Assembly (NCBI GenBank): GCA_963969395.1 | Contig: OZ017798.1 | Span: 10,842,173-10,906,172 of the forward strand | DNA length: 64,000 nucleotides | DNA from: Pseudoscleropodium purum | Taxonomy: Eukaryota > Streptophyta > Bryopsida > Hypnales > Brachytheciaceae | Direction of reading: 5' to 3' | In this document: in pieces, positions 3,051 through 50,989 of the stretch | Position numbering within the stretch: the first letter of the stretch is position 1 | Layout: each line of letters opens with the position of its first letter | The notes under the pieces: model-generated | Told to the model about the DNA's origin: nothing | What the model saw: only the letters and a program-made list of their open reading frames with translations | Databases searched by the model: none | Program-made: the position numbers and the translations under genes

Positions 3051-3877
3051 AATTTTTTTTATAGGATCTTGTTTGTAGTCAAAAGGAGATTTTAGATTTT
3101 TTAAGAATGCATTTTTTGAATACAGACTACAAATACAACACATGTATGAACTACAAATTTATACAAATTATAAACTACAAATTTTCAAAGTGTTGAAAAG
3201 AGGTATTTCAAAAATTGACCATATACTCTTGTAGATGGTGGGAGTACATTTTAGGCAAGAATTTGTAGAGGTTGATTATAAGATAAATATGCATTCTACT
3301 GTATTTAAACCTTGGTAGTAAAAACATGAAGCCATGCTATGAAGCCATTTCAAATTTCAATTAATTTTGGAATATATTAATATTTATTCACTTGTTTTAT
3401 AAAGTTGTTAATAAGATTGGAAGTACATACTATAAAGTGAGTAAAAGGTATTGTAATTTTTTGAAACTAAAATATTTAGTGAGATATCTTCACACATACA
3501 AAATTCTATAGACACAACTTTTTAATATTTACCATAATGAATTTTTTAAACATATAAAGGGCATGGTAAGAAAGTCATGCACTAAAAAACTTTGCATCTT
3601 ATGTAAGTAAATGTTTTTCAAACACAACTTCAAGAATAATGACTTCCAATGTAGTTGAATTTATAGTGTAGGTGGGGGTGAACATTTAATTTTATATTTA
3701 ATTTATTTTTTAAAGTTTGAAGTATTCTTGAAAATCTGTTCTAAGAATTTTGGAGCTAAAATTTGGAGGTGATGATCTTCTAATAGATTAGTAGACATTT
3801 AAAAAAATTAAATTTAGAAATAGTTAATTTTATATTATATTGATGTCTTGCAAAGTGAGCTTCATTCAAAATGTTAA

Positions 3878-4681
3878 TCTCTAAAGATCCAAGACTTTGT
3901 TTTCAACAAAAATATTCCAAACTGTTATTTCTAGTGCAAGTATCAAATTTTAGAAAAAAAAACATTTTTGGACAAATGTAATCATAGCATCTTGTAGTAA
4001 ACTAGTTTGAGGAGATGTGGAAAAATTTCAAAAATTTCCACTATGTAGATTGAAAGATATTAGCATTTAAATTGACAAAAATCATGTGAAAACATGGGTA
4101 GCAACAATTCATTCTTCAGGGCATGTTGGCTTGTTAGTAAATAGAAAGAAGTAGAAAATTATTCAAAATACTAAATTGGTAAGAATTTAATTGTGGAATT
4201 GAAAAATGCCAATCCCAATGGATGTAATGTTGTAATAAACAATATTCATCCTATTATTTTATTTTCTTAAATTATTGAAAACTGACTTAAAATAAAAGAT
4301 TGCAAAGTTCATTTGAGAGTGGATCCACAAACAAAACTCCTCACAACTTTCACCTTATTAATCCAAATGGAATGATTCAAAGCGTTCCATATATATATAA
4401 ATCTAGAAAACCAATTTCAAAATTTTAATTCTTAAAAAGTGATTTTTTAAGAATTTTTTTGAGCCAACCGCCATGGCATCAAAACTACATATCATGTAAT
4501 AATTTTGTAACCACGTAGTTTTTAACCATGTAGTCAAAAGTTATGAAAATTGTTGGGCCTTAAAGCTACTCCTTGACTACATGTTTTGTGAAAATTTCAA
4601 AGAAAAAAATGAAAATTCCACTTGTAGTGAGCTACTTAAAATGTATATAATGCCAAAAAAGAATGATGTGGCCTTTAGTGG
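3878..4681 (+). mobile_element. TTAA-flanked MITE, family A, copy 1
   Basis: The element is 804 bp. It starts TCTCTAAAGATCC and ends GCCTTTAGTGG, with TTAA directly outside both ends (3874-3877 and 4682-4685). Its interior can be followed along its length in the elements at 27488-28387 and 38922-39873 (same strand) and 28832-29635 and 37670-38587 (reverse), for example the shared stretch CCAATCCCAATGGATGTAAT. No coding capacity is seen, so it is non-autonomous. Confidence 0.7.
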
Positions 4682-5819
4682 TTAATGTTCCAAGATGTGG
4701 AAAAGATGATTTGGTGGTTCTTTCATTAACAACCACCTTCATAGAGCTTTTGTCATTGGCCAAATTTTGTTCTATTTAAAAAAATCTTTTTATATTGCAA
4801 ATTAAAATGTCAAATACCTACTTTCTTGAGATTTTGCACCATTTTAGCCTTTTTAACGTAGAGAGTTATTCTATGCATGCCGTTCCTAGGATACAATCTC
4901 TTCAAGGATCTACACATGACCTATATTTAATTATGTATTGATTAAATATTTTTTGAATTTTAAAGGACTCCAAATTTATTCCTCAAGTACTGATGCAAAT
5001 GCAGCAAATAGTATTAATATTTCTCGAAATCATCTACATCCTTATAAAGACTTCAAAATGTTTTATTTTCCTTTCATTTGTTACAGAAAAGAACCAAAAT
5101 GTTTTATTTTTAAAGTTCTATATTTCATTTAAAACTAAACAACGTGTAGAATCTTAGTTGATGAGAGTAGATTTTTTAAATGAAAAAATTGAACTCAATA
5201 ATGGAACAAACATAGTTGGGAATATGTTTTTTCATGATTCATTTCAAGGTCAGTAAAGCAAGGGCCTATTTCGCTGACCTTGCCAGCTTCCCTATATTTT
5301 ATTTTTTCCAACCCTGACCACCGGGGGGTACAGTATGATAATGTTTGACGTGAAGGTCAAAAGTGATTTAGTGTCTTCTCTGACTTGGAGATTAAATAAA
5401 AAATAAATAAAGTAACATTACAGAGAACTTAAGTTATTAGGACAATTTGAATCTGCGGAATGTAGGAAGGAATTTTTATGAGTTTTGTAAATTTTCAAAA
5501 TCTACTTTACGTTGAACTTAAAGTGAGTGAGTTAGATTAGTTTGTCAGCAGCCTATGATCAATTCACTGAACTAAAGAAAAGTCATAAGCTAATAAGTTG
5601 GCTAACTTGTGCCAAAAGATTTGTTGAAGATAGTGCAGTTGTTGGACAGTGTGCCACATCGTAACTTCTACTCGCACCAAAGCCAGGCTGCACTGACAAG
5701 ACACTGAGTTAGAACTAAGTTAACAAGGGAACTGCCTATTTTGTGTTGTGGGGGATCAAACGAAAAAGGATTGTGCACTCATGTGCGTGCCGAAGCCACC
5801 TTCACCCCTCACCGCCCAA

Positions 5820-12160: not shown

Positions 12161-15100
12161 ACACCCCCTGGATATATGCCTCACCTCCTCTTATGCTTGT
12201 AATTTTTCACAACTGTAGGAGATGCATTAAGTGTGGGACATTTTAGTCTTCTACTGAGGTTCAATATCTTGAAGTTTAACATGAATGATGAACCCATGTG
12301 TGAACTATACATAATAACTTAGCTGTGGGAAATGGAGAGTTAATACAGTCCTTCTGCACAAATAGCCTATCCTACAAGGCCAGATATTGTTTGCCAATAT
12401 GCACTACCTTAGTGAAGAACACACTCAATTTTTTTTCAAGTGACCAAAGAACAAAGATATCACTACTTCATTAACCCTAGGCCGCCCAGCCCTCGTTTGC
12501 CTCAAGAGCACGCTTCGATACCTGACATTGAAGAATGAGAGCCCAACATTGATCTAGGGTGAAATTTATCGAATCCGCCATTGGCGACAAGCATCAAGGG
12601 CGGGGCGAGGCGAGGCAAGATGCAAGCAGTTCGTTGCGATTGAGCGGTTGGTTATGCAGAATCCGGCCTCTTTCTAAAGATGGAACTGCTCCGGGTCACT
12701 GTATTTTTCAACGCTTGTGTACAGATTCTGGCCGATTGTAGACAACTGCGAGTTCGTTTGGTCACAAGCATACGAGGGATTCACGAAGACCAGACAAACG
12801 ACCTGGAGATAAACAAAAATTTGGCTCCAACGATTGCAAAATGGCCTAAAGGGAATCCATGTAAGGTGAGTAGTTGTTGACGGGTGACCGGGACAAACTG
12901 GGAGGTGGTCGCAGGGGCAACGGGGTACTGCCGGTACTCCGTGAGTGCAACATCAACGAAGGAGCAAGTCGACAGCGATCACTGAACAAAAGAACAAAAC
13001 TGAACAGAATTCCTATATACAAGAGTTGAGAGTTGATTTGAGGTACACCTTTCTAGCAATTTGAAAATTCATATATTTTTTGTAGATGGAGTTTGAAATC
13101 TAGAATCCCCTTTCAACCACCAACACAACTTAACAAAAGCTTTTACAAGTCAATAATAGGAACGATTTTCAAACCCTTATTTGGTGTTGTTACCTTATTA
13201 GAGGTAGGATGCCCAAATGACCCCAAAGTTGGCCAAATTCATAAAGAAAACAGTGAACGTGAAGTTTTGATTAGATTTATTAATCCAAGAAGGACAAGCT
13301 AATCATAGTGGAAATCAACCTTTTCGGTACTGTGTGAATCATTTGCTTACCAAAACCCAAGAATACTCTTTGGAGGTCAAAATACTGTTCAAGATTCTCC
13401 CCTGCTTCCCATAGATTTCCAAGTCTGAACGTCTTCTTCACATTTGTCTTACATAACTTAGAGGGATTCTGTATTATCCATCAGACACTTAGTGTCTGCA
13501 ACGTTCTTCTAAAGTCATTGACATTGTATTTGAATGGTGCGTCGTTATGACAAATGGTCACTCCAATCTATGTCGGGCCGCTGGAGCTACACTGCAACAG
13601 TTTCTCAAAGTCCAACTTCAGTCACCCCTGCTCGTTTTGTCAGACAGGTCTGTTCTTGGAGTTGTCCTCCGTAGTTCTTGTCGTCCAGGTTGTCTCCCAC
13701 CAGGCCACTCGTGGCTGGTGGTCGTTTGCAACTTATTTTGCCCTCTTTGCAACATTTGGAATTCTCTTTCCACTTGTTAAGATTGAAAAAACAAAAAGGT
13801 CCAACTTCGGCAGCACGAGGTTCAGTTCGTGGTCTTAAATTGTCTGTAAGTGAACCGCAAAGTTGGGCACAAAGTCAGACATACTCGCTGTGCTGTACAG
13901 TCCATGTGGCACATGCATGTGGCAACTTAACTACTACCACAAATGGCCATGGAGTGCAAATCTACGAGTAGGTCAAGGTGTGATCGTCATACGCATTTGT
14001 ACTGAAATCCAGTTTGATGAAAACAGCTGGGTATGGGAAAGGTCTAATGAATCTGCCTTGGGGGAAGAGCAGTGATTTTTCTGGACTTACTTGTTTGGAA
14101 GCTCCCCGAACCGCCACTTTTTGCTACTGGGAAGAGCAGTCATTTTTCTGGACTTACTTGTTTGGAAGCTCCCAAAACTGCCACTTTTTGCTATCGAGCC
14201 TACTTGCTATTCTTAGACTGGTCAGATTTTCATATGTTCTTGTTGGCAAGTGAAAGGAGGTTCCAACACACTAGAGAATGTTGCATTTGGATACCACATG
14301 CAAAAGTTATAAAGGAACAAAGGTTGGTTCTAAAAGTGTTTCTTCTGTATAGGTACAGAACTAACTTTGGAAATGTACATAGAGTATAGATGGTGGTTTA
14401 AGGTTAGTGGCACATTTGGGTGTACCTACCGTAGGTGGCTTTCATATTATTTGTTGCACCAATATTTTGGCAATTTTTTAAGTTGTAGGGAGGGAATATA
14501 ATTCATTTAGCAATAATGTTGAATTGAGAGGCAAATATTTAGGCTTCAAAGGCTATTCTAAGCATCACAACAAATGAAAGTAGGTGACGGTATCTTTTTT
14601 TTTCTAAAAAACTATTTGATGATAATGTTAAATTGAAAGGCAAATATTCTAAGCATTAGAATAAATTAAAGTAGACGACAATATCTTTTTCTAGAAAACT
14701 ATTGCAAGTGCAAGAACTGCAAGCTCAAGATCCTTTAATTAAACTACTAAACTCCCAATTGAAGTTGATGATATTAACTTATAAGTTACAGACTGCAAGA
14801 ATTCAAGCAAAAAAAATGTAGAACTCATGACTTTGAGGTTTGAAGAATAGTACTTGCAATGATGCAATTTAGTTATATTGAAACGTGGACAATGACCTGC
14901 AAAGTTGCACCTTGACACTACAATTGTTAATCTTTGAAATGCTAATTTTGGATCATAGAGGTCGTTACTAGTTATGCACAATAATATTTTCAAATTAAGG
15001 CAATCTTGAAAGCATTTTCAAAGTATGTAAATGAAGTATTGAAAAAAAATTTGTGGGGAAAAAAAATTTATAATACTATCTTTGAAGTATAATAATTAAG

Positions 15101-24600: not shown

Positions 24601-27279
24601 GTGCATTTATATTTGTATTCTTGTCCAAATTTGTATCAACATTGATAACCATATACGCATGTATTGATATACATGATGTTTATCCATATATTATATTTGC
24701 ATTGCAACTTAGGATGGGACATAGAACACATGGTTGTCAATTTTTGGGTGATAGTAGCTAAGAGATTGTGCCCAAAACTAGTTTTTTTTTAATTTTATTT
24801 GACTCCTAAATTTCCAATGTCCCCTCAAGAGACAAATGGAAATTTTGGAAAGCTTCTATAATCTCAATTTTTGGGGCAATATTTTGAAACTTTTAATATG
24901 GTAGAAAAAAACATTAACTTCATGAAAATATAATTTTTATTTTAGTCAATGTCTAAGATCCAAAGTTATACCATCCTAAACCCCAAAAGTAGTTTGCAAA
25001 GTAGCAATAAATCCACAAAAATTTGAAATAAATAAATAATTTAAATTATAGAAAATATTTATATCTATACAAAAAGCTTGGATTTATTCCATTCGGATGA
25101 TGATGTTAAAGTTATGGAGTTATGATCTTATAAGGCGATCGTAGCATCAAAAATAATGTATAGGATTCATTTTTAAACTCAATTTTAAAAAAATTTAAAA
25201 AACAAAAAATCCTCCACACTAGTCAAACAAGGTGAAAAACAAACATTTTCTACTCTTTAATTGCAAGTATCTTGCAATCTACATAGTCAATTTAAGAAAA
25301 AATTCTTATCCACATTTTTATATAAGTTTATTGCACAATTTTATAGATGCTACTTTTAACTACTTCTAGACTTTTGAAATTCCAAGATTAATAATGGTCA
25401 TCATGAGAAAAAAAATTATCATCAAGAGATAATGCAAAACATTGGAAAATCTATGCAAAATATCAAGGGAACTCCCAAACCTATGATTGGAAGACCCCAT
25501 GATCTTTAGTCCAAAATTCAATGAATAATCTAGAAGTAGTTAAATGTGGCCACATATAGTTAAATATGAAAAAAAATTGTTTCTTTTTTTGGAATAAAAA
25601 TGGTAGTTTATAGTGATTTTTTATTTTAAAAATGCCTTGAGACTATAGGGATTAATTTAGAATGATGCAGTATTGCCCCTTTGGATATTGCATATATTTA
25701 AATTTATAAGATTCAAATTTTCTCCACTTTTGAACAACAAGATTAGAGAAATTTTCAATGTAGTTTGGTCAACTTATTTTTGAGGGAAAAAAAGACACAT
25801 TATAGGTGGTTAAATAAAAAAAACATGTAGCCTCTTGGAGGGGGGCTTCTTCGTGTCCATTTAGATTTTAATGTGGCTCTTTTAATTCCCTACGTGTTTT
25901 CAGTGGTAACCCAAAAGTATTTCTTTCTAAAGTTTGTAGAATAATTAATGAAGCTTCTACCATGAATAGAAACTCTATAGAGGTGTTCATTGAATTCAAG
26001 AAAATAGTGGCTTTTGAATTTTAATTCCAACTTTTGTATATTCAATTCTAGAAGGAAAATGTTGTAATGTAAACTCTTTTTAGTTCTACTACATTAGAAT
26101 GCAATAGGACTAATTAAATCGGAACCACAACAAATTAGACAATTGGACTAGGGGAGATTTTGGGTCTACCTAAATTATTTTGGGAAGTATAGATTGCAAT
26201 CTTTATTGGAGCAATCAAGCTATTTAAATTCATGAATATGAATGAATCATGTATATTATGGATTAAAAAATAATATATTCATTCAATCTAAAAAAGTAGC
26301 ATTGTTTTAGATTTTGTAGCAATTGAAAGATTTTCTTCTTTCTAGGTGATTGACTTTTATGATGCAAAGAAAAAGACAAAGGATACAAGATAACTTGGGT
26401 CCCAAGTTTGAATGGGAAGAGAAGCATTGGAAGTGAAGGTAGGAGGAAGTTCCTATTTAAGATTAGTTGCATCACTTTCACAAAAGACTCAGTGCTTGCA
26501 CCAAATTAAAAATAAAGTGTCTCTGAAGGCTTTATTTCTCTAGATTTATCTAAGATGACGTCAACCTTGAGACATGTGAAGTTGGGCATGCTACCATACA
26601 TGACATTCATCATAGCTAAGAGCAAACTTTCATATACAAAAAGTAGCCAAATTTTGTAGAAAAGACAAAATAATTCTACATGGATTCTACTTGGAAGTGT
26701 GCAATATTTGCCAAAGGGGAATCAAAATCATTGGCCATCAAAAATATAGAGAAAGGCCAATAAGAAGTGGAGGAGGCAACTTTTTGACTTCCAGAAAACT
26801 AATTTTAACATTGAACATCAACTTTTTGATCACTTTTAATTTGACAACAAGACAAAGCTACCCTGAAATATAGTTTCTCAATACTCACAGAAAAGTGTAA
26901 ACAGGTGTCAAGAAACTTGGACCAAAAGCAATTACGATTCTAGAATACTTAAAAATTGTTTTCCAACTCTATATGGGTTATGTACTGTAACCAGAAGCCT
27001 TCTTGTGCAATGAGTAACTTACGGTAGATGCTTTCTATGTACTTTCAAAACATCATATTTTTTAATGTTCTATTTCCCCTGCTTGAATAATGATTTGAAC
27101 TCCATAGGCTCAGAATGAGAGACTGAAAGTTATTCAAGTTTTAGAAAATTTGAGATTTTTAACCCCTAAAGCCATGAGCTTTTTTGAGAACTTAGCATTT
27201 TGGAGCAGCTCATTACAATGGATTTTTTCTTTCTTTCTTTAGGATTTTCATACAACTTGTGCCCAAGGACTAGCTTTAA
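21688..27279. other. HMA-gene upstream region and AT-rich DNA
   Basis: From 21688 to about 22430 the DNA is moderately GC-rich with only shadow frames and probably holds the HMA promoter and leader. The rest is AT-rich without coding signal. At about 24000-24210 a stretch matches the right-hand part of family A and ends GGGCTTTTAGCGG/TTAT, probably an eroded copy whose left end I could not place. Confidence 0.5.
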
Positions 27280-28827
27280 CCCCTAAATGCCCAAGGCATG
27301 TTTTGAGCTTCTTAGAATTTGCTCCAAACGGAACAAAATGCCAACATTTTGATATGTTTTACCAATTTAAAAAAAATTGTAATCATATAAATTCAAACTA
27401 GAAATGTTAGAGATCTCATAGGAAAAAAAACATAGCAATATCACTTATGGAGTGAAAGATTATAATGTTTGACCTTGAGGGTGTTAACCCCTAAAGTTCT
27501 ATAACCTTGAAACCGCTCAAAAATTGCCATTTTTAGTATAAGTACCAAATTTTTGGAAAAAAACTTTTTTTGACACTTATAAACATAGGATCTTGTAGAA
27601 TATTGATTTGAAAAGATGTAGTAAAAATTTCAGAACTTTTCACCGCGTGGATTGCAAGATTTTAGCATTTGAATTGACAAAAATATTTTTTTTAACCCTG
27701 CAAAAAATCGGGCAACAACACTTTACAAGCTCACTTTTCTATTAAAAAAAATGTTCAACATGGTGGTGCTTCTTTGGAATTTTTTACTAAACAAGTTTTG
27801 TACATGCTTGAAAATTTCTAGGTCATTTGGAATTATACAGCATATAGGGAAAAAAACAATAAGTAGAAAGAGATAGAGAATGATTCAAAATACTAAATTG
27901 TTAATAATTTAATTATGGAACTGAAAAATGTCAATCCCAATGGTTGTAATGTTTTTATAAACAATATACCCTATGATTTTATTTTTTTCAAAAAATATTG
28001 AAAATTGAGTGAAATAAACAACTTCAAAGTTTATTTTAGCGGACAAAATCTATAACTACCCACAAACTAAAATTCCTCATAATTTTTGACTCATTGATTG
28101 AAATGGAATGATTCAAAGCTTTCCACACATATATAAATATAGAAAATCAATTTCAAATTTTTATTTTTGAAAAAAGTGAATTTTTCACCCAACTTGAGAA
28201 ACAAACAACATATTGGGCCATAACTTTTGACTCCTATTTCCAATGTCATGAAATTTGTTGCATGTGAAAGATATTCCTCGTCCATACCTTCTAATAAAAC
28301 TTGAGCCTAAAATGTGGAAATTTCTGGTCACAATGACCTGCCTAAAAATTCTATACAACCAAACTACACAGTCTGGTCCTTTAGGGGTTAAAATTGCAAA
28401 AATGATGTGATCTTTCACTTCTCTTTTTACAAGTCAAATCTAAAAAGTTGGTGACCAAAAACATATGAGGTTAGAGGGCCTCACATGTATAACCCGAATC
28501 AATTTATGTCTTCTTAATATCTACTCTATCATTTTTTTAATTGAATTTTGAATATGATTTTTTCTCCAAGAATTAGTGTATTTGAGGCTCATCTCTAAGA
28601 GCTCTCAACACTATGGAAAGTTAGGATTGCAATGGGTACCCTTGCACAAAATCTTGAATAGAAAAATCACTATCATTTACATTTAAGATCGGATTTGTGA
28701 TGCTAAAATTAGACTTCAAAAAGAACTTTTCATAAATATAAACTACTAAAAATAGCAACTTGATTAGGTTTTATTTAACTTCAAAGTTTTGCAAACACCA
28801 TATTTTGGTGCCTCGGGCATTTAGGAG
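27280..28827 (+). mobile_element. TTAA-flanked MITE, family B, copy 1 (split by a nested element)
   Basis: It begins CCCCTAAATGCCCAAGGCA at 27280 and ends TGCCTCGGGCATTTAGGAG at 28827, with TTAA on both sides (27276-27279 and 28828-28831). A 900-bp family A element plus one TTAA copy is inserted at 27488-28391. Without it the element is 644 bp, matching the other copies (632 and about 626 bp). Long matching inverted ends, no coding capacity. Confidence 0.88.
27488..28387 (+). mobile_element. TTAA-flanked MITE, family A, copy 2, nested in family B
   Basis: The 900-bp element starts CCCCTAAAGTTC and ends GTCCTTTAGGGG, flanked by TTAA (27484-27487 and 28388-28391). The intact family B copies have a single TTAA at this spot (near 30120 on the minus strand and near 49834), so the boundaries are confirmed by internal empty sites. 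No open frame of note. Confidence 0.9.
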
Positions 28828-28831
28828 TTAA

Positions 28832-29635
28832 GGCACAACAATTTTCATAACTTTTGACTACGTAGTAAAAAAATTATTGTTTGATATGTTATTTTTAGCA
28901 AAGTGTGGGCAACTCAAAAAAATTCTTAAAATTTATCTATTTAACAAATCAAAATTTGAAAATGGTTTTCTAGATTTATATCTTAGCAAAAAGATTTGAT
29001 TTATTCCATTTTGATTAATTAGATGAATGTTATGAGGAGTTTTAGTTTGCGGGTAGGTATGGAAACTCTCCTCTAAAATAAACTTTGAAGTCCTTTAATT
29101 AATTTAGTTTTCAATATTTTTGAAAAATAAATAAAAACATTGGATGTACCAATTGTTCATTACAACATTACAACAATTGAGATTGGCATTTTCAATTCCA
29201 TAATTAAATTCTTAACAATTTAGTATTTTGAATCATTCTCTACTTTTTTTTATGTACTATTCATTTCTCATATGTTGTACAATTCCAAATGATTCAAATT
29301 TTTTCAAGCATATAGCCAACTTGCCTTGAAGAATGAATCCAAATAATTACCACCATTTTGGACATTTTTTCATACAAATAAGACCTTGTGAAGTGCATCT
29401 TTATGGTTTATTGCAAGGCCAAAAAAAGAATTTTTGTCAATTCAAATGCTAATATCTTGCAATGTACATGGTAGAAATTTTTGGATATTTTTGCACATCT
29501 TTTCAAACCAATGTACTACAAGATCCTACAATTACATGTATCCAAAAAAAATTTTCTTTCTAAAATTTGGTGCTTATACTAGAAGTGACAATTTTGGAGT
29601 GCTTTTGGTGAAAAAATAGTCAAAAATTTTAAAGG
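28832..29635 (-). mobile_element. TTAA-flanked MITE, family A, copy 3, reverse
   Basis: It is the reverse complement of the family A interior, abutting the family B right end and sharing TTAA 28828-28831. The other side ends in TTAA 29636-29639. The end near 28832 lacks CCCCTAAA and starts internally (GGCACAACAATTTTC), so this copy is truncated or eroded there. Confidence 0.7.
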
Positions 29636-29701
29636 TTAATTCAACATCGTAATAGAAATATTCCATGCACTTCCAATATGCCTTGCATGGCAAACATTTA
29701 A

Positions 29702-30333
29702 CCTCTAAATGCCTAAGGCATCAAATTTCGGTATCGATAATATTTTGAAGTTTAATAAAACCAAACCAAGTTAGTATTTTTGTAGTTTATATTCTTGAAT
29801 TTTTTTTAAAAGTCTAGTTTTAGCATTAAGAATCCAACTTTGAAAATAATTGATTATAATTTTTTAATTCAAGATTTTGTACAAGGGAGTTCATTGCAAA
29901 GCTTGATTTTCTAGTGTTGATCGAGGTCTTTTGGACACTAAATCTTAGAAAAAAAATCACATTACAAATTCATTTCAAAAAAATTGTAGAGTATATTTTG
30001 AGAAGTTGTAAATTGGTTGGGGTTATGCACATTATGCCCTATATCTTGTATTTTTTTATGACCAATTTTTAGATTTGACATGTAAAAAGAGGATTAAAAG
30101 ACTTCAAATCACTTTCATGGTTTTAACACCCTCATGATTAAACATTATAATCTTTCAATCCATAATTGATATTGTTGAGTTTTCTTTTCCTATGTGATCT
30201 CTAACATGTCTAGTTTGATTTTGTACAATTACAATTAAAGAAAAATGATAAAAACATATCAAAATGTTGACTTTTTCTTCAATTTGAAGCACATTCCAAG
30301 GAGCTAAAAGAAAAGGCCTTAGGCATTTAGGGG
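29702..30333 (-). mobile_element. TTAA-flanked MITE, family B, copy 2, intact
   Basis: The 632-bp element has ends CCTCTAAATGCCTAAGGCA (left) and AAGGCCTTAGGCATTTAGGGG (right), about 20 bp of inverted identity. It is flanked by TTAA (29698-29701) and CTAA (30334-30337, one change). It is uninterrupted and serves as the empty-site reference for the nested insertions in the other two copies. Confidence 0.88.
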
Positions 30334-30685
30334 CTAAGTTACACATTTGCACATTACACACTTGCACTTGCAAATTACAGCCTCCATCAATAATACATGT
30401 ATATGTATGTATTAGCCTATTTGTCCCTTAATATTAAACATTTCTTAGTCCTTTGTCAATCGTCATTGTATAATGAAAAGATAATATATTAAGATTATAT
30501 CCTTTTGCAAACTCAATCAATCATGCTAATTTCACTTTTTGAAAACAAAATCTCTATTTATGATGAAAGCTTTTCAATTAATTTTGTCATTTTACTTGAT
30601 AATTGATCAAAATTGTTGATGATGAAGTTTAAAATGTTAATTATACAATCAAGTAGGAAATATTAGCTTCCGTATCTTTTTTGAA

Positions 30686-31265: not shown

Positions 31266-31810
31266 TTAAACAAAAATTTAAAAAAAAATTGCGATATTCA
31301 CTACCTCTTCAGAAGAGTTAGATGGCCCATTTCAATTATCTTAAAAACAAATAAATAAATAAATAAAATTTGAGAGACACATTCAAAGATGAGTACAGAT
31401 ACAAATATTAAAATGAAGTGCAAATGCAAAAGTAAATATGAATATAAGCATAAATATTGATTACATATAAAGAGTAAATACATACTTACGTTAGGATGTA
31501 AAAAAAACATAAGAGGTTTTAGTTCAAGAATTTTTTTGAAAAGAAAATCATTGTTACTATTACAACAACCCATTTCAATTACCCCCTTCCAAAATAAATG
31601 AAAACAACAACCAAAACACATTCCTTCACTATTCACTCAAAAGAATAAATTAACAACAACCACAAAGTCCAAAATGAAGTTGTGATATTTGCAATACAAC
31701 CATTTTATTGGCATGGTATTGTCTACCCAAAGTTTGTAAATTAGCCCCCTTGTCCTATATTACTAGTTCCCTATGTTTTTTTGTTTGTTTTAAATTACTT
31801 GTCCCTTTAA

Positions 31811-32684
31811 CTCCTAAAATTCTATGGTATTTTGAAGCCTACAATTACTTCAAAATACTTATATCCAAAGTAAGGCTAAATTCTTCATCCATATTTATTC
31901 TTTAACAAATACAACCATAGGATCCTTTAGTTTACTTATTTAAGTACATTTTAAAAGAATTTTAGAGTAAAAATCCTTGCTAATTGCAAATTCAATGTAT
32001 TATTATTTAAAAAAGTATTTTTTTCTGGACCTTCCTAAAGGTGAAGTTTTGTCTTTTGACATTGTTAGGGAAAAACACATGTGCAATCTACCTAGTATAT
32101 TGTAAAGTGGTTTGAAAATACATGTTAATAAATTCAACTAAAGAAACTTTCATTTTCATCTTAAAAAATTTATAAAATAGGAGGTATATAATGAAAGAAA
32201 AAAAATCGTTGATAATTCTTGTAAGAAGTTGAAAATTGACAATTCCTATGGTGAGAATGTTCTTGTAAAAATATTATTCACTTTCTTATTATTTGAAATC
32301 TTTCAAAATTGAGTTCAAAAAACAACTTTATATATTTTTTCTACCTTCATTACGTGCAAAATAAAACTCTTCACAACTTTCACCTTGTATTATTTGGAAT
32401 TGAATGGTTCAATTGTTTTTGAGGAGGTATAAATCTATACAATTAAATCAAACTAAATAATTTTTTTGGGAGAATAATTTTAGCTATCCACTTTGACATT
32501 GAAATCAAAATAAATCTTATAAATTTTGCAATTTTTACTGAAATGACATGAAACAAAGTTTCATATGCAGATAAAGATGATTAGTATTCATTTGAAAATC
32601 TCATGCAAAAATTACAAATTATGAAGTCAAGAGAGCCTACCCAAGTCCTAAAAAATTCAAAATGGGCTCTTTAGTAGTTTAGGA
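31811..32684 (+). mobile_element. TTAA-flanked MITE, family D, copy 1
   Basis: The 874-bp element starts CTCCTAAAATTC and ends AGTTTAGGA, with TTAA on both sides (31807-31810 and 32685-32688). It matches 53348-54530 through its length (shared GTGAAGTTTTGTCTTTT near the middle and GAGCTCTTTAG / GGGCTCTTTAG near the right end). Confidence 0.7.
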
Positions 32685-36696: not shown

Positions 36697-37669
36697 TTTG
36701 ATTGATTGACTGAGACATTTTTTTGTCCTTGTCTTTAGTTGTAGAAGTTGTTTTTTGGACCATAATTTTTCCTCATAATAAGTAGGCACTAGAGGTTGTT
36801 ATTTGAGAAATTGGATTTTCACCTTTCTTTAAGAGGATTCACCCACTAGAACATTTGACATCTAGGTGCTCACCAAGGTTTTCTCAAAATTGTGCCCATG
36901 GTCGATTACCTTAAAGATGGGGAAGAAAATTTAGTTTCTTGAAATTCCAACTATGATGCCTTCTATTGCTTGCAAATTTTTCACAAATACAATATTGTAG
37001 AAACAATTGTTAGGTTTTGGGATTATAATATGAATTGAAATCCTCATCCTTACTAGCTAGAGTCATATGATTTAGTTGAAATAGCTATGGGTGAAGGTAT
37101 ATCAAGTGAGACATAAAGTAAAGGAGAGTGAAATTGCATTGTGCACAGGACTTCTGAGCCTCTAACTCTTGTAAAATGAATGAATAAGTACTTCTTTTAG
37201 AGTGCACTAATTTTTAAGGTGATTTTTGTAAGGTCCAAGCTTATCCAATTGTAGAGCCTTTATCTCAAAAATTATTTAGAACCTAGGACTAAACTTGTCA
37301 ATGAGAATTTTAGACTAATATAATTTCTTTTCTAATCATGGCTATGCATCAATAAAACATATTAGTTTATTTTAGGTCTTGGATGAGATGGAAAAATCCA
37401 TAAAGGCTTGGTTGCTAGCCAATTTGATGATAGAAGAGTATTCTAGTGTCTTTCATATCTAAAGAACTATTTTAATTTATAATTTGATGAGTGGCTCAAA
37501 TCATATATACCTACTTATTATAGGTTTGATCCTACATGACATTTTCTTGGATATTTTTTACTAGTTACACTTGTTTCCTGCTTATTCTTGAAAAAAACCT
37601 ATGTATCAAAAAGATAATTAGGTAAAGTAGCATAAGTTTTGTGGATCATACAATAGGTAATTCCTTTTA

Positions 37670-38587
37670 CCCCTAAAAGATCAACTTATGTTTTTGGCAA
37701 TATAACTTTTGGAGGTAGGTGCATGTGAGTGGAGATTTGACTTATTTAGGCTACATTTTTTTACAAGGTGGATGAAGAATATCTTTAATGAGTATGAAAA
37801 TTTATTTCATTTGAATATACAAGTGAAAAGTTATAATGCAAAATGTTGTTTGTTTACCAACTTGGGCAACCCGGGTATATCTAAAATATCATTTTTTTAA
37901 AAATAAAAATTTGAAATTGGTTCTCTAGATTTATATGTAAGTGCAAAGCTTTGAATCATTCCATTTTGATCAATGAGTCAACAGTTATGAGGACTTTTAG
38001 TTTGTAGGTAGTTATGGATTATCTACTCTCAAATAAACTTTGAAGTCCTTTATTTAACTCAATTTTCAATATTTTTGAAAAAAACACCCAACCATAGGAT
38101 GTATATTGCTTATGATAGAATTACAATCATTGGGATTGGAATTTTTCAATTCTATAACTAATTATTAACAATTGAGTATTTTTATTCATTCTCTACTTTT
38201 TTCTATTTACTATTTTTTTCCTATATGTTATACAATTCCAAATGATCTGAAAATTTTCAATCATGTAGAGAACTTGCCTTGAAGAATGAATTCAAAGACT
38301 TGGAACCAATCTGGACATTTTTTCATACAGATATAAACGTTGTGAAGTGCAGCTGCCTGATTTTTTGTAGGGCTAGAAAAAGGCTTTTTGTCAATTCAAA
38401 TCCTAATATCTTGCAATCTATATGGCAAAAAATTCTAAAAAGAATTCCACATTTTTTAAAATTAGCTTACTACAAGATCCTTTGGTTACATATGTCCAAA
38501 AATGATTTTTTCTAAAGTTTAGTACTTGTACTGGAAATGTCAGTTTTGGAACATTTTTATGAAAATATAGTCAAATAAGTTTAGAAG
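37670..38587 (-). mobile_element. TTAA-flanked MITE, family A, copy 4, reverse
   Basis: The 918-bp element has left end CCCCTAAAAGATC at 37670 (preceded by TTTA) and right end TTTAGAAG before TTAA 38588-38591. It is the reverse complement of the family A interior across most of its length. It lies head to head with copy 5 across about 335 bp. Confidence 0.8.
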
Positions 38588-38921
38588 TTAAGTGAATCAA
38601 GAGTATTTGGGGGCCAATAATCATTCTTTAGAAGATTATGCTTTAGTAAGTTAGAACTCTTATTCCAATGTTATGCATTATTACCATAGTCTAAATTTAG
38701 GCTCTGTTTTCTTCTTTATTTTGCTCTAGATGACTTTTGTTTCCATTAGGTAAAATTTGTTGATCATCCCCAAATAGAAGAGATTTTTTAAAGCAATTTT
38801 ATCAATCTTGTAAAAAATTCACATGAGAAGAAAGATCCCCAACTATGGACTATTCTTAGAATTTTAAAAGCATAAAAATGCATAACATTGAGGGATTGAT
38901 TGGAATTTTCTCACTGGTTAA

Positions 38922-49620: not shown

Positions 49621-50989
49621 CCCCCAAATATCCAAGGTCTTTTTTGAGCTTCTAAAAAAATTGCTATAAATTAAACAAAAAGCCAACATTTTGATAAGTT
49701 GTATCAATTTTTTAACTAAAACTGTACAAATTCAAAGTAAATAGTAGATATGCTAGAAATCACATAAGAAAAGAAAACACATCAAAAGCAATTACAGATT
49801 GAAAGATTATAATGTTTGAACATGATGTTGTTAAAATCACAAAAGTGATTTGAACTCTTTCAATCCTCTTTTCACATGTCAAATCTAAAAAATTTGGTTA
49901 TCAAAAAAATTTGAGGTTAAAGGATATAATTTACATAAGGGTGAATGCAAGAAACTATGGCCGTTTTTGTTGCATTGTCTATAGTTCTTACAATTTTTTG
50001 AGAAGTATTGTTGGTATAATTAGAAAAACAAATTTAATGTCAAAAATCTGTTTGATGTATACACCTTTAAGGAAAAAATATCTTAGGAAGGAAAAGCATA
50101 GAATTTTTTTTTAAGGAGGGGAACTAGAAAAGTAAAAAATCTGATGAAAATAGGTACTTTGACATTTAAATTTGTAATTAATAGGAAATTTTTTTTCAAA
50201 AAAACTAAAAGTTTGAAATTTGAAAAGACTTCATGATGAAGAGATTTCACCAAAAGAATCATCTTCAAACCATTTTCAATGTTTTGAATTGCACGTGCAT
50301 TCGAGCAAGGAAGACCTATTTGCATGAATGTAGAAGACATATAATATTATTTTTAAGTCTTTTTTGGTGGGCACATGCTTCTCTAGTGTGGGAATAGACC
50401 ACAACAATTTCCACTATAGATCATTAATTTTGGGTAGTCCATAGTATTAAAGAACCTTAAATCGCAAATTGTGACAAATTAGCAGATTAGCTAAATAGAA
50501 ATTTCAAATAAAGTGATTTCTGAGATTTTTTGAAAAATAAGTTTTAATTATTGTCTAGTAACTAATCTTCATAAAAAAACTCAAATACATTGGCTTCAAT
50601 TTGCAAAAGTTATAGCCAATGACAACTCATAAACTAAAAATGTGATGCAATATAATACTAGTATTTCTTGCATTCACCTATAACCCCAATCAATTTACAG
50701 CTTTTCAAAAACTATTCTACAATTTTTCTCTACCATCTAGTACATTTGAGGCTCATTTCCATGAGCTCTCAACACTACAAAAAGTCAAGATTGCAATGGA
50801 AACCCTTGCACAAAATCTTGGATAGAAAAATTAGTCAATTGTTTTTAAAATCGGATTTTTGATGCTAAAGCTATACTTCAAAAAGAGTTTTTCAAAAATA
50901 TAACCTACTAAAAATAATAAATTAGTAAGATTTTATTTATCTTCAAAATTTTGTCTACACTAGAATTTGGTGCCTCAAACATTTAAGGG
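49621..50989 (+). mobile_element. TTAA-flanked MITE, family B, copy 3 (split by a nested element)
   Basis: It starts CCCCCAAATATCCAAGG (preceded by TGAA, eroded) and ends GCCTCAAACATTTAAGGG before TTAA 50990-50993. A 741-bp foreign element sits at 49938-50678. Without it the copy is about 626 bp, as in the other two. Confidence 0.82.
49938..50678. mobile_element. TIR element nested in family B copy 3
   Basis: The ends GGTGAATGCAAGAAA and TTTCTTGCATTCACC are perfect 15-bp inverted repeats, at 49940 and 50664. TA lies outside both (49936-49937 and 50679-50680). The intact family B copies read straight across this point. No transposase frame; a TA-inserting MITE of 741 bp is the best guess. Confidence 0.78.

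Follow-up and report, generated by a model that had tools for sequence, protein, structure and literature searches.

The family A elements of the moss Pseudoscleropodium purum are almost certainly MITEs derived from piggyBac transposons through internal deletion and mobilized in trans by piggyBac transposase. They have defined ends, duplicate TTAA on insertion, are absent from empty sites in related sequences, and are kin to elements whose transposase conserves three aspartates. The evidence comes from a 64,000-nucleotide stretch of DNA (the window), 10842173-10906172 of contig C42, and from searches of the genome assembly (313,191,705 bases in 52 contigs). In the window, a family A element and three copies of a second family, B, are arranged as follows.

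27488..28387, forward strand: 900-bp MITE of family A, with CCCCTAAAG at its start and CTTTAGGGG at its end
27484..27487: TTAA, left half of the family A target duplication
28388..28391: TTAA, right half of the family A target duplication
27280..28827, forward strand: family B copy 1, split by the family A element; 644 bp when A and one TTAA are subtracted
27276..27279: TTAA outside family B copy 1, left
28828..28831: TTAA outside family B copy 1, right
29702..30333, reverse strand: family B copy 2, 632 bp, no interruption
30123..30126: single TTAA, the empty site in B copy 2 at the A insertion point
49621..50989, forward strand: family B copy 3, with another insert, 741 bp long, inside it
49831..49834: single TTAA, the empty site in B copy 3 at the A insertion point

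The family A element and both its TTAA (27484-28391) thus form an insert within B copy 1. We aligned copy 1, with the flanks of A joined, to copies 2 and 3, and the alignment confirmed what the earlier note had claimed from the window, that A is bounded by two TTAA in copy 1 where the other copies hold a single one. The coordinates proposed there for the B copies agree with ours, as do the lengths without inserts, here 644, 632, and 624 bp (previously 644, 632, and about 626), the last after the 741-bp insert of that copy and a repeat of 4 bp were subtracted. At locus L003, a further family A copy sits within a further B copy, at a TTAA other than the one used in copy 1. When A and one TTAA are taken out of the alignment, that TTAA is found uninterrupted in B copy 1, copies 2 and 3 are without TTAA there, and L003 carries a single TTAA at the point used in copy 1. 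The two alignments therefore record two distinct A insertions, each with an empty site in another copy. The outer flanks of family B are TTAA except for two, each one base off: CTAA at copy 2 (30334-30337) and TGAA to the left of copy 3.

The window also holds older copies and distant relatives of family A.

37666..38591, reverse strand: older family A copy with 77% identity to a reference A copy, L005
38918..39876, forward strand: older family A copy, 74% (reference A copy L005)
28836..29639, reverse strand: older family A copy, 75%, without about 130 bp at one end
3874..4685, forward strand: older copy of family A, split into two pieces (78% and 70%), with TTAA and a degenerate CCCCTAAAG at each end
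31807..32683, forward strand: distant family A relative, 59%, starting TTAACTCCTAAA
30682..31269, forward strand: distant relative of family A, weakly matched in two pieces (65% and 55%) that overlap, with CTTTAGAGGTTAA at its right end

Altogether, 18 matched stretches of family A relatives lie across the window at identities from 87% down to about 54%, the weakest of which may be background, and this spread of ages suggests repeated waves rather than a single burst. The family A end CCCCTAAA (for example, 27488-27495) includes CCCTAAA, the plant telomere repeat unit; the likeness is probably a coincidence.

Counted as end-motif places and not as whole elements, TTAACCCCTAAAG occurs 7,845 times in the genome (3,972 + 3,873) versus 14 for its reversed control pattern, and CCCCTAAAG alone occurs 11,938 times versus 1,415 for its reversed control. 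It follows that 66% of the CCCCTAAAG places are directly preceded by TTAA and, from the comparison with the reversed controls, that the association of TTAA with the end is not due to chance. Where hundreds of copies with these ends next to TTAA had been anticipated, the end motifs run to thousands. Among the first 100 places listed, 15 pairs of neighbors face each other within 8 kb, seven of them spanning 914-941 bp, near the length of a family A copy. TTAACCCCTAAA is an end motif bounding elements of this kind. On contig C1 (3081018-3081039), two ends face outward over one common TTAA (CTTTAGGGG-TTAA-CCCCTAAAG), as if two elements shared one target.

A DNA search with a B-plus-A query gave 12,746 first-look candidates, 40 of which were scored and yielded 61 matches; we read the family A ends at eight loci, the window copy (L001) and the next seven of the 61. 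An exact 13-mer stands at one end or both in seven of the eight, and at both ends in four (L001, L003, L004, and L008). L005, L006, and L007 have it exact at one end and with a one-base change at the other, and L002 is degenerate at both. With CCCCTAAAG at both ends, family A has short inverted ends beginning CCY. Exact TTAA lies on both sides at six loci, the remaining two deviate by one base (CTAA right of L005, GTAA left of L007), and the likeness between copies, judged by eye, ends at TTAA. The flanks of the copies and the two empty sites alike document a TTAA target duplicated on insertion. The copies are 86-88% identical to each other and lie 3.6-6.0% from their majority. At a borrowed rate of 6.5e-9 substitutions per site per year, as used in the part of PMC6890710 available to us, these eight copies, drawn from among the best-scoring of the 12,746 candidates, would be some 6-9 million years old, which is to be taken as an order of magnitude only.

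The kinship of family A to piggyBac emerged from nine loci with matches to the transposase profile PF13843 (DDE_Tnp_1_7), read at 7-9 kb. L039 to L043 were chosen because L031, which lies inside L039, showed a CTTTAGGGGTTAA end, the others being its nearest relatives; L044 and L045 were next in likeness, and L046 and L047 represent a distant clade. The BLAST settings used for A-likeness are permissive on AT-rich sequence, so a shuffled control was added. In seven of the nine loci, all from one transposase clade, A-like sequence flanks the transposase on either side, with its order and orientation conserved, and mostly ends at TTAA plus CCCCTAAA. The likeness is strong on both sides in L044 and weaker in the other six; A-like flanks on both sides of the transposase are absent from L046 and L047. 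The ends of the seven elements are as follows.

L039, 2142 to 5948: TTAACCCCTAAAG left, CTTTAGGGGTTAA right
L041, 840 to 7587: TTAACCCCTAAAG left, CTTTAGGGGTTAA right
L043, 2262 to 8981: TTAACCCCTAAATG left, GTTTAGGGGTTAA right
L045, 521 to 7040: TTAACCCCTAAAG left, CTTTAGGGGTTAG right
L044, 374 to 7033: TTAACCCCTAAAG left, CTTTAGGGTTAA right, one base short
L042, 751 to 8633: TTAACCCCTAAAG left, right end degenerate with TTAA kept
L040, to 8221: right end with one change, left end not recognizable

These relatives span 3.8 to about 7.9 kb and encode a transposase of about 640 amino acids. The left part of family A resembles the transposase-3' termini of piggyBac elements and the right part their transposase-5' termini, and we read the window element as a probable, non-autonomous deletion derivative of piggyBac. 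Further repeats occur within these loci: a tandem array of a 55-bp unit in 10.4 copies on the transposase-3' side of the 3.8-kb element (L039, 3346-3914), an A-like MITE that starts 57 bp inward from the left end of the L041 element (897-1803), and a copy related to that MITE at L046 (626-1524).

PF13843 has at least 117 matches in the genome, all above the curated cut-off, with 116 of 512 first-look candidates scored, and no matches in 14 control genomes, a weak control if these are prokaryotes. In-frame stops interrupt 115 of the 117 stretches, the other two being fragments of about 174 and 99 residues, and every scored match longer than about 220 residues contains stop codons. Many of these stops are TAG and TGA, and C-to-T change in methylated DNA could be their source. 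The three conserved aspartates of piggyBac transposase are catalytic. When 13 translated domains were aligned with stops read as residues, D144 and D232 were present in every row and D349 in at least 90% of them; we take these to be the catalytic residues, which fits the alignment to piggyBat. The elements related to family A thus carry a DDE_Tnp_1_7 transposase with three conserved aspartates, and all of these elements are degenerate. Transposase-bearing partners with the same ends, for which the earlier note had suggested a search, were thus found; no autonomous one came to light among those seen.

The only solved sequences that a profile of this alignment matched at E <= 0.001 were piggyBat (9c0f, E 2.1e-43) and Transposase 6x67 (E 3.7e-31). 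From 2,336 candidates in a set of 5.8 billion proteins, the profile retrieved 173 relatives, of which the best, P0001, is an uninterrupted reading frame of 646 amino acids from another source, 73% identical to the first row of the alignment. Searched back into the genome, P0001 gave 79 matches (68 scored of 833 candidates), the best covering residues 12-641 of 646 at 67% identity with 11 stops; the only stop-free matches in the scored set cover 158, 218, and 59 query residues. The C terminus is Cys/His-rich by eye in P0001 and L039, and no Pfam zinc finger matched it. In a tree of 38 rows, the seven close-clade transposases and P0001 form one clade (100/99), and the 13 sequences from this genome need five label changes overall, with outside sequences falling between them.

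Could another superfamily have moved these MITEs? TTAA contains both TTA and TAA, and a MITE review gives a TAA/TTA duplication for plant Tourist MITEs in the part available to us (PMC10004981), so that PIF/Harbinger (Tourist-like) elements with a 3-bp target and a coincidental fourth base might be considered. We find this highly improbable, since TTAA is intact on both sides of six of the eight copies and one base off in two, the empty sites hold all four bases, and same-ended elements with subterminal likeness, at the seven loci read, hold piggyBac transposase; the target is 4-bp TTAA rather than 3-bp TWA. TTAA is used by more than one superfamily, Kolobok and Sola3 among them, and one of these could have moved the MITEs while piggyBac genes came to be nested inside A-like elements, an insertion that would likewise put A-like sequence to either side of the gene. 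A recent nest of this kind, however, predicts halves 86-88% alike, as A copies are mutually, whereas the element ends are 32-45% diverged from family A, and A-like ends recur in all seven loci of one transposase clade; we find this account, too, highly improbable. In the material examined, then, neither did the ends lie off TTAA in most copies nor did the partner belong to another superfamily, and the proposal of piggyBac-type transposition is supported for family A by its link to these partners.

For family B, no transposase-bearing element resembling it in subterminal sequence was found among the piggyBac loci read. Its copy 1 has inverted ends of about 19 bp (CCCCTAAATGCCCAAGGCA / TGCCTCGGGCATTTAGGAG, with two mismatches) that start CCCCTAAATG / CATTTAGGAG, also given as CCCCTAAATG / CTCCTAAATG; the family's end motifs are CCCCTAAATGCC and its end pattern is TTAACCCCTAAATGCC. 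Family B therefore combines a TTAA target with CCY ends, copy 1 being bounded by TTAA and these starts, and on the strength of its target and ends it is probably another piggyBac-type MITE family, parent not found. A possible but unlikely reading is that only family A derives from piggyBac and that B is an unrelated family using TTAA. Consistent with it, a search of 30 piggyBac loci gave no match to B at E 1e-3, B subterminal sequence is unlike any piggyBac element end read (Z -1.7 to 2.9), and the piggyBac loci examined include no transposase-bearing relative with B-like ends and subterminal sequence. Against it, B has TTAA and a CCCCTAAA start in common with piggyBac elements, and the piggyBac element L043 starts TTAACCCCTAAATG, as B does. 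The 741-bp insert in B copy 3 (49939-50679) has inverted ends GGGTGAATGCAAGAAA / TTTCTTGCATTCACC(T) with ATAA on both sides; it does not belong to family A and seems to represent a further MITE family, one whose AT-rich target is at most 4 bp.

For family A, we infer a deletion origin, mobilization in trans, and eventual cessation. Full-length elements would have made piggyBac transposase. Shorter copies in which both ends were retained would have been mobilized by it in trans: it would have bound the common ends (CCCCTAAAG... and its inverted partner), excised the elements, and inserted them into TTAA with duplication of that target. Family A would thereby have become widespread as the coding copies fell into decay. 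Its burst has probably ended, since the transposase-bearing relatives seen are decayed, and some plant may yet harbor active members of the piggyBac group, given that the P0001 frame is uninterrupted elsewhere. We see about an even chance that an old, diverse piggyBac population with several deep transposase lineages in one genome has long been resident in this moss lineage and was a main source of its MITEs.

Two stretches of the window resemble plant genes, one for a kinase (Pkinase E 9e-41; a legume-lectin match there fell short of the cut-off) and one for a peroxidase (E 1e-18). A 65-nt stretch is duplicated in tandem at 14062-14193, its copies 94% identical and 67 bases apart, and Rfam gave no match within the window. 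The chlorophyll a/b-binding family has 50 matches in the genome. Against solved structures, the LHCII stretch matched the multi-domain chain 9vfj best, then 7xqp and 8htu (358 bits), both of which we take to be from the moss Physcomitrium patens; other plants scored only slightly lower (about 340-346 bits). Such matches support a land-plant host well and a moss host mildly.

Family A is thus a known kind of element, piggyBac, familiar from animals, in a host group where it is little documented. The earlier note's remark to that effect agrees with the open-access papers listed, where we met labels or general statements only: in the portions accessible to us, a fern repeat table labels 1,230 piggyBac elements covering 122,417 bp (PMC6890710), Stipa has one 75-bp piggyBac label (PMC8319324), a MITE review lists piggyBac-type MITEs for angiosperms (PMC10004981), and piggyBac in "plants" is mentioned in general terms (PMC10140906). 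The accessible portions of PMC7466625, PMC9942856, PMC10619864, and PMC10954464 report none in land plants, and the open-access matches listed include no dedicated land-plant study, though such papers may exist beyond them. A land-plant genome with more than 100 piggyBac transposase matches tied to thousands of derived end motifs widens the known range of the superfamily, offers plant annotators an end motif to look for (TTAACCCCTAAAG), and makes native scar-free transposases in plants a testable question.

The system shares with the piggyBac superfamily, including Trichoplusia ni piggyBac and piggyBat, the TTAA duplication, short inverted ends starting CCC, and a DDE_Tnp_1_7 transposase with three conserved aspartates and a profile match to 9c0f and 6x67. 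It differs from those two in its land-plant host and in the decay of the transposase copies seen; the elements read here are longer than beetle piggyBac elements, and several deeply diverged lineages occur in one genome. Small size, high copy number, and an AT-rich target are held in common with Tourist/PIF-Harbinger MITEs, which, in the sources as available to us, differ in their 3-bp TAA/TTA target and their transposase. A parallel in plants may be drawn with the piggyBac-type MITEs of angiosperms, which are likewise non-coding; the accessible part of the review describes them as grouped by internal sequence, ends, and target duplication (PMC10004981), whereas here the transposase-bearing relatives are present in the same genome.
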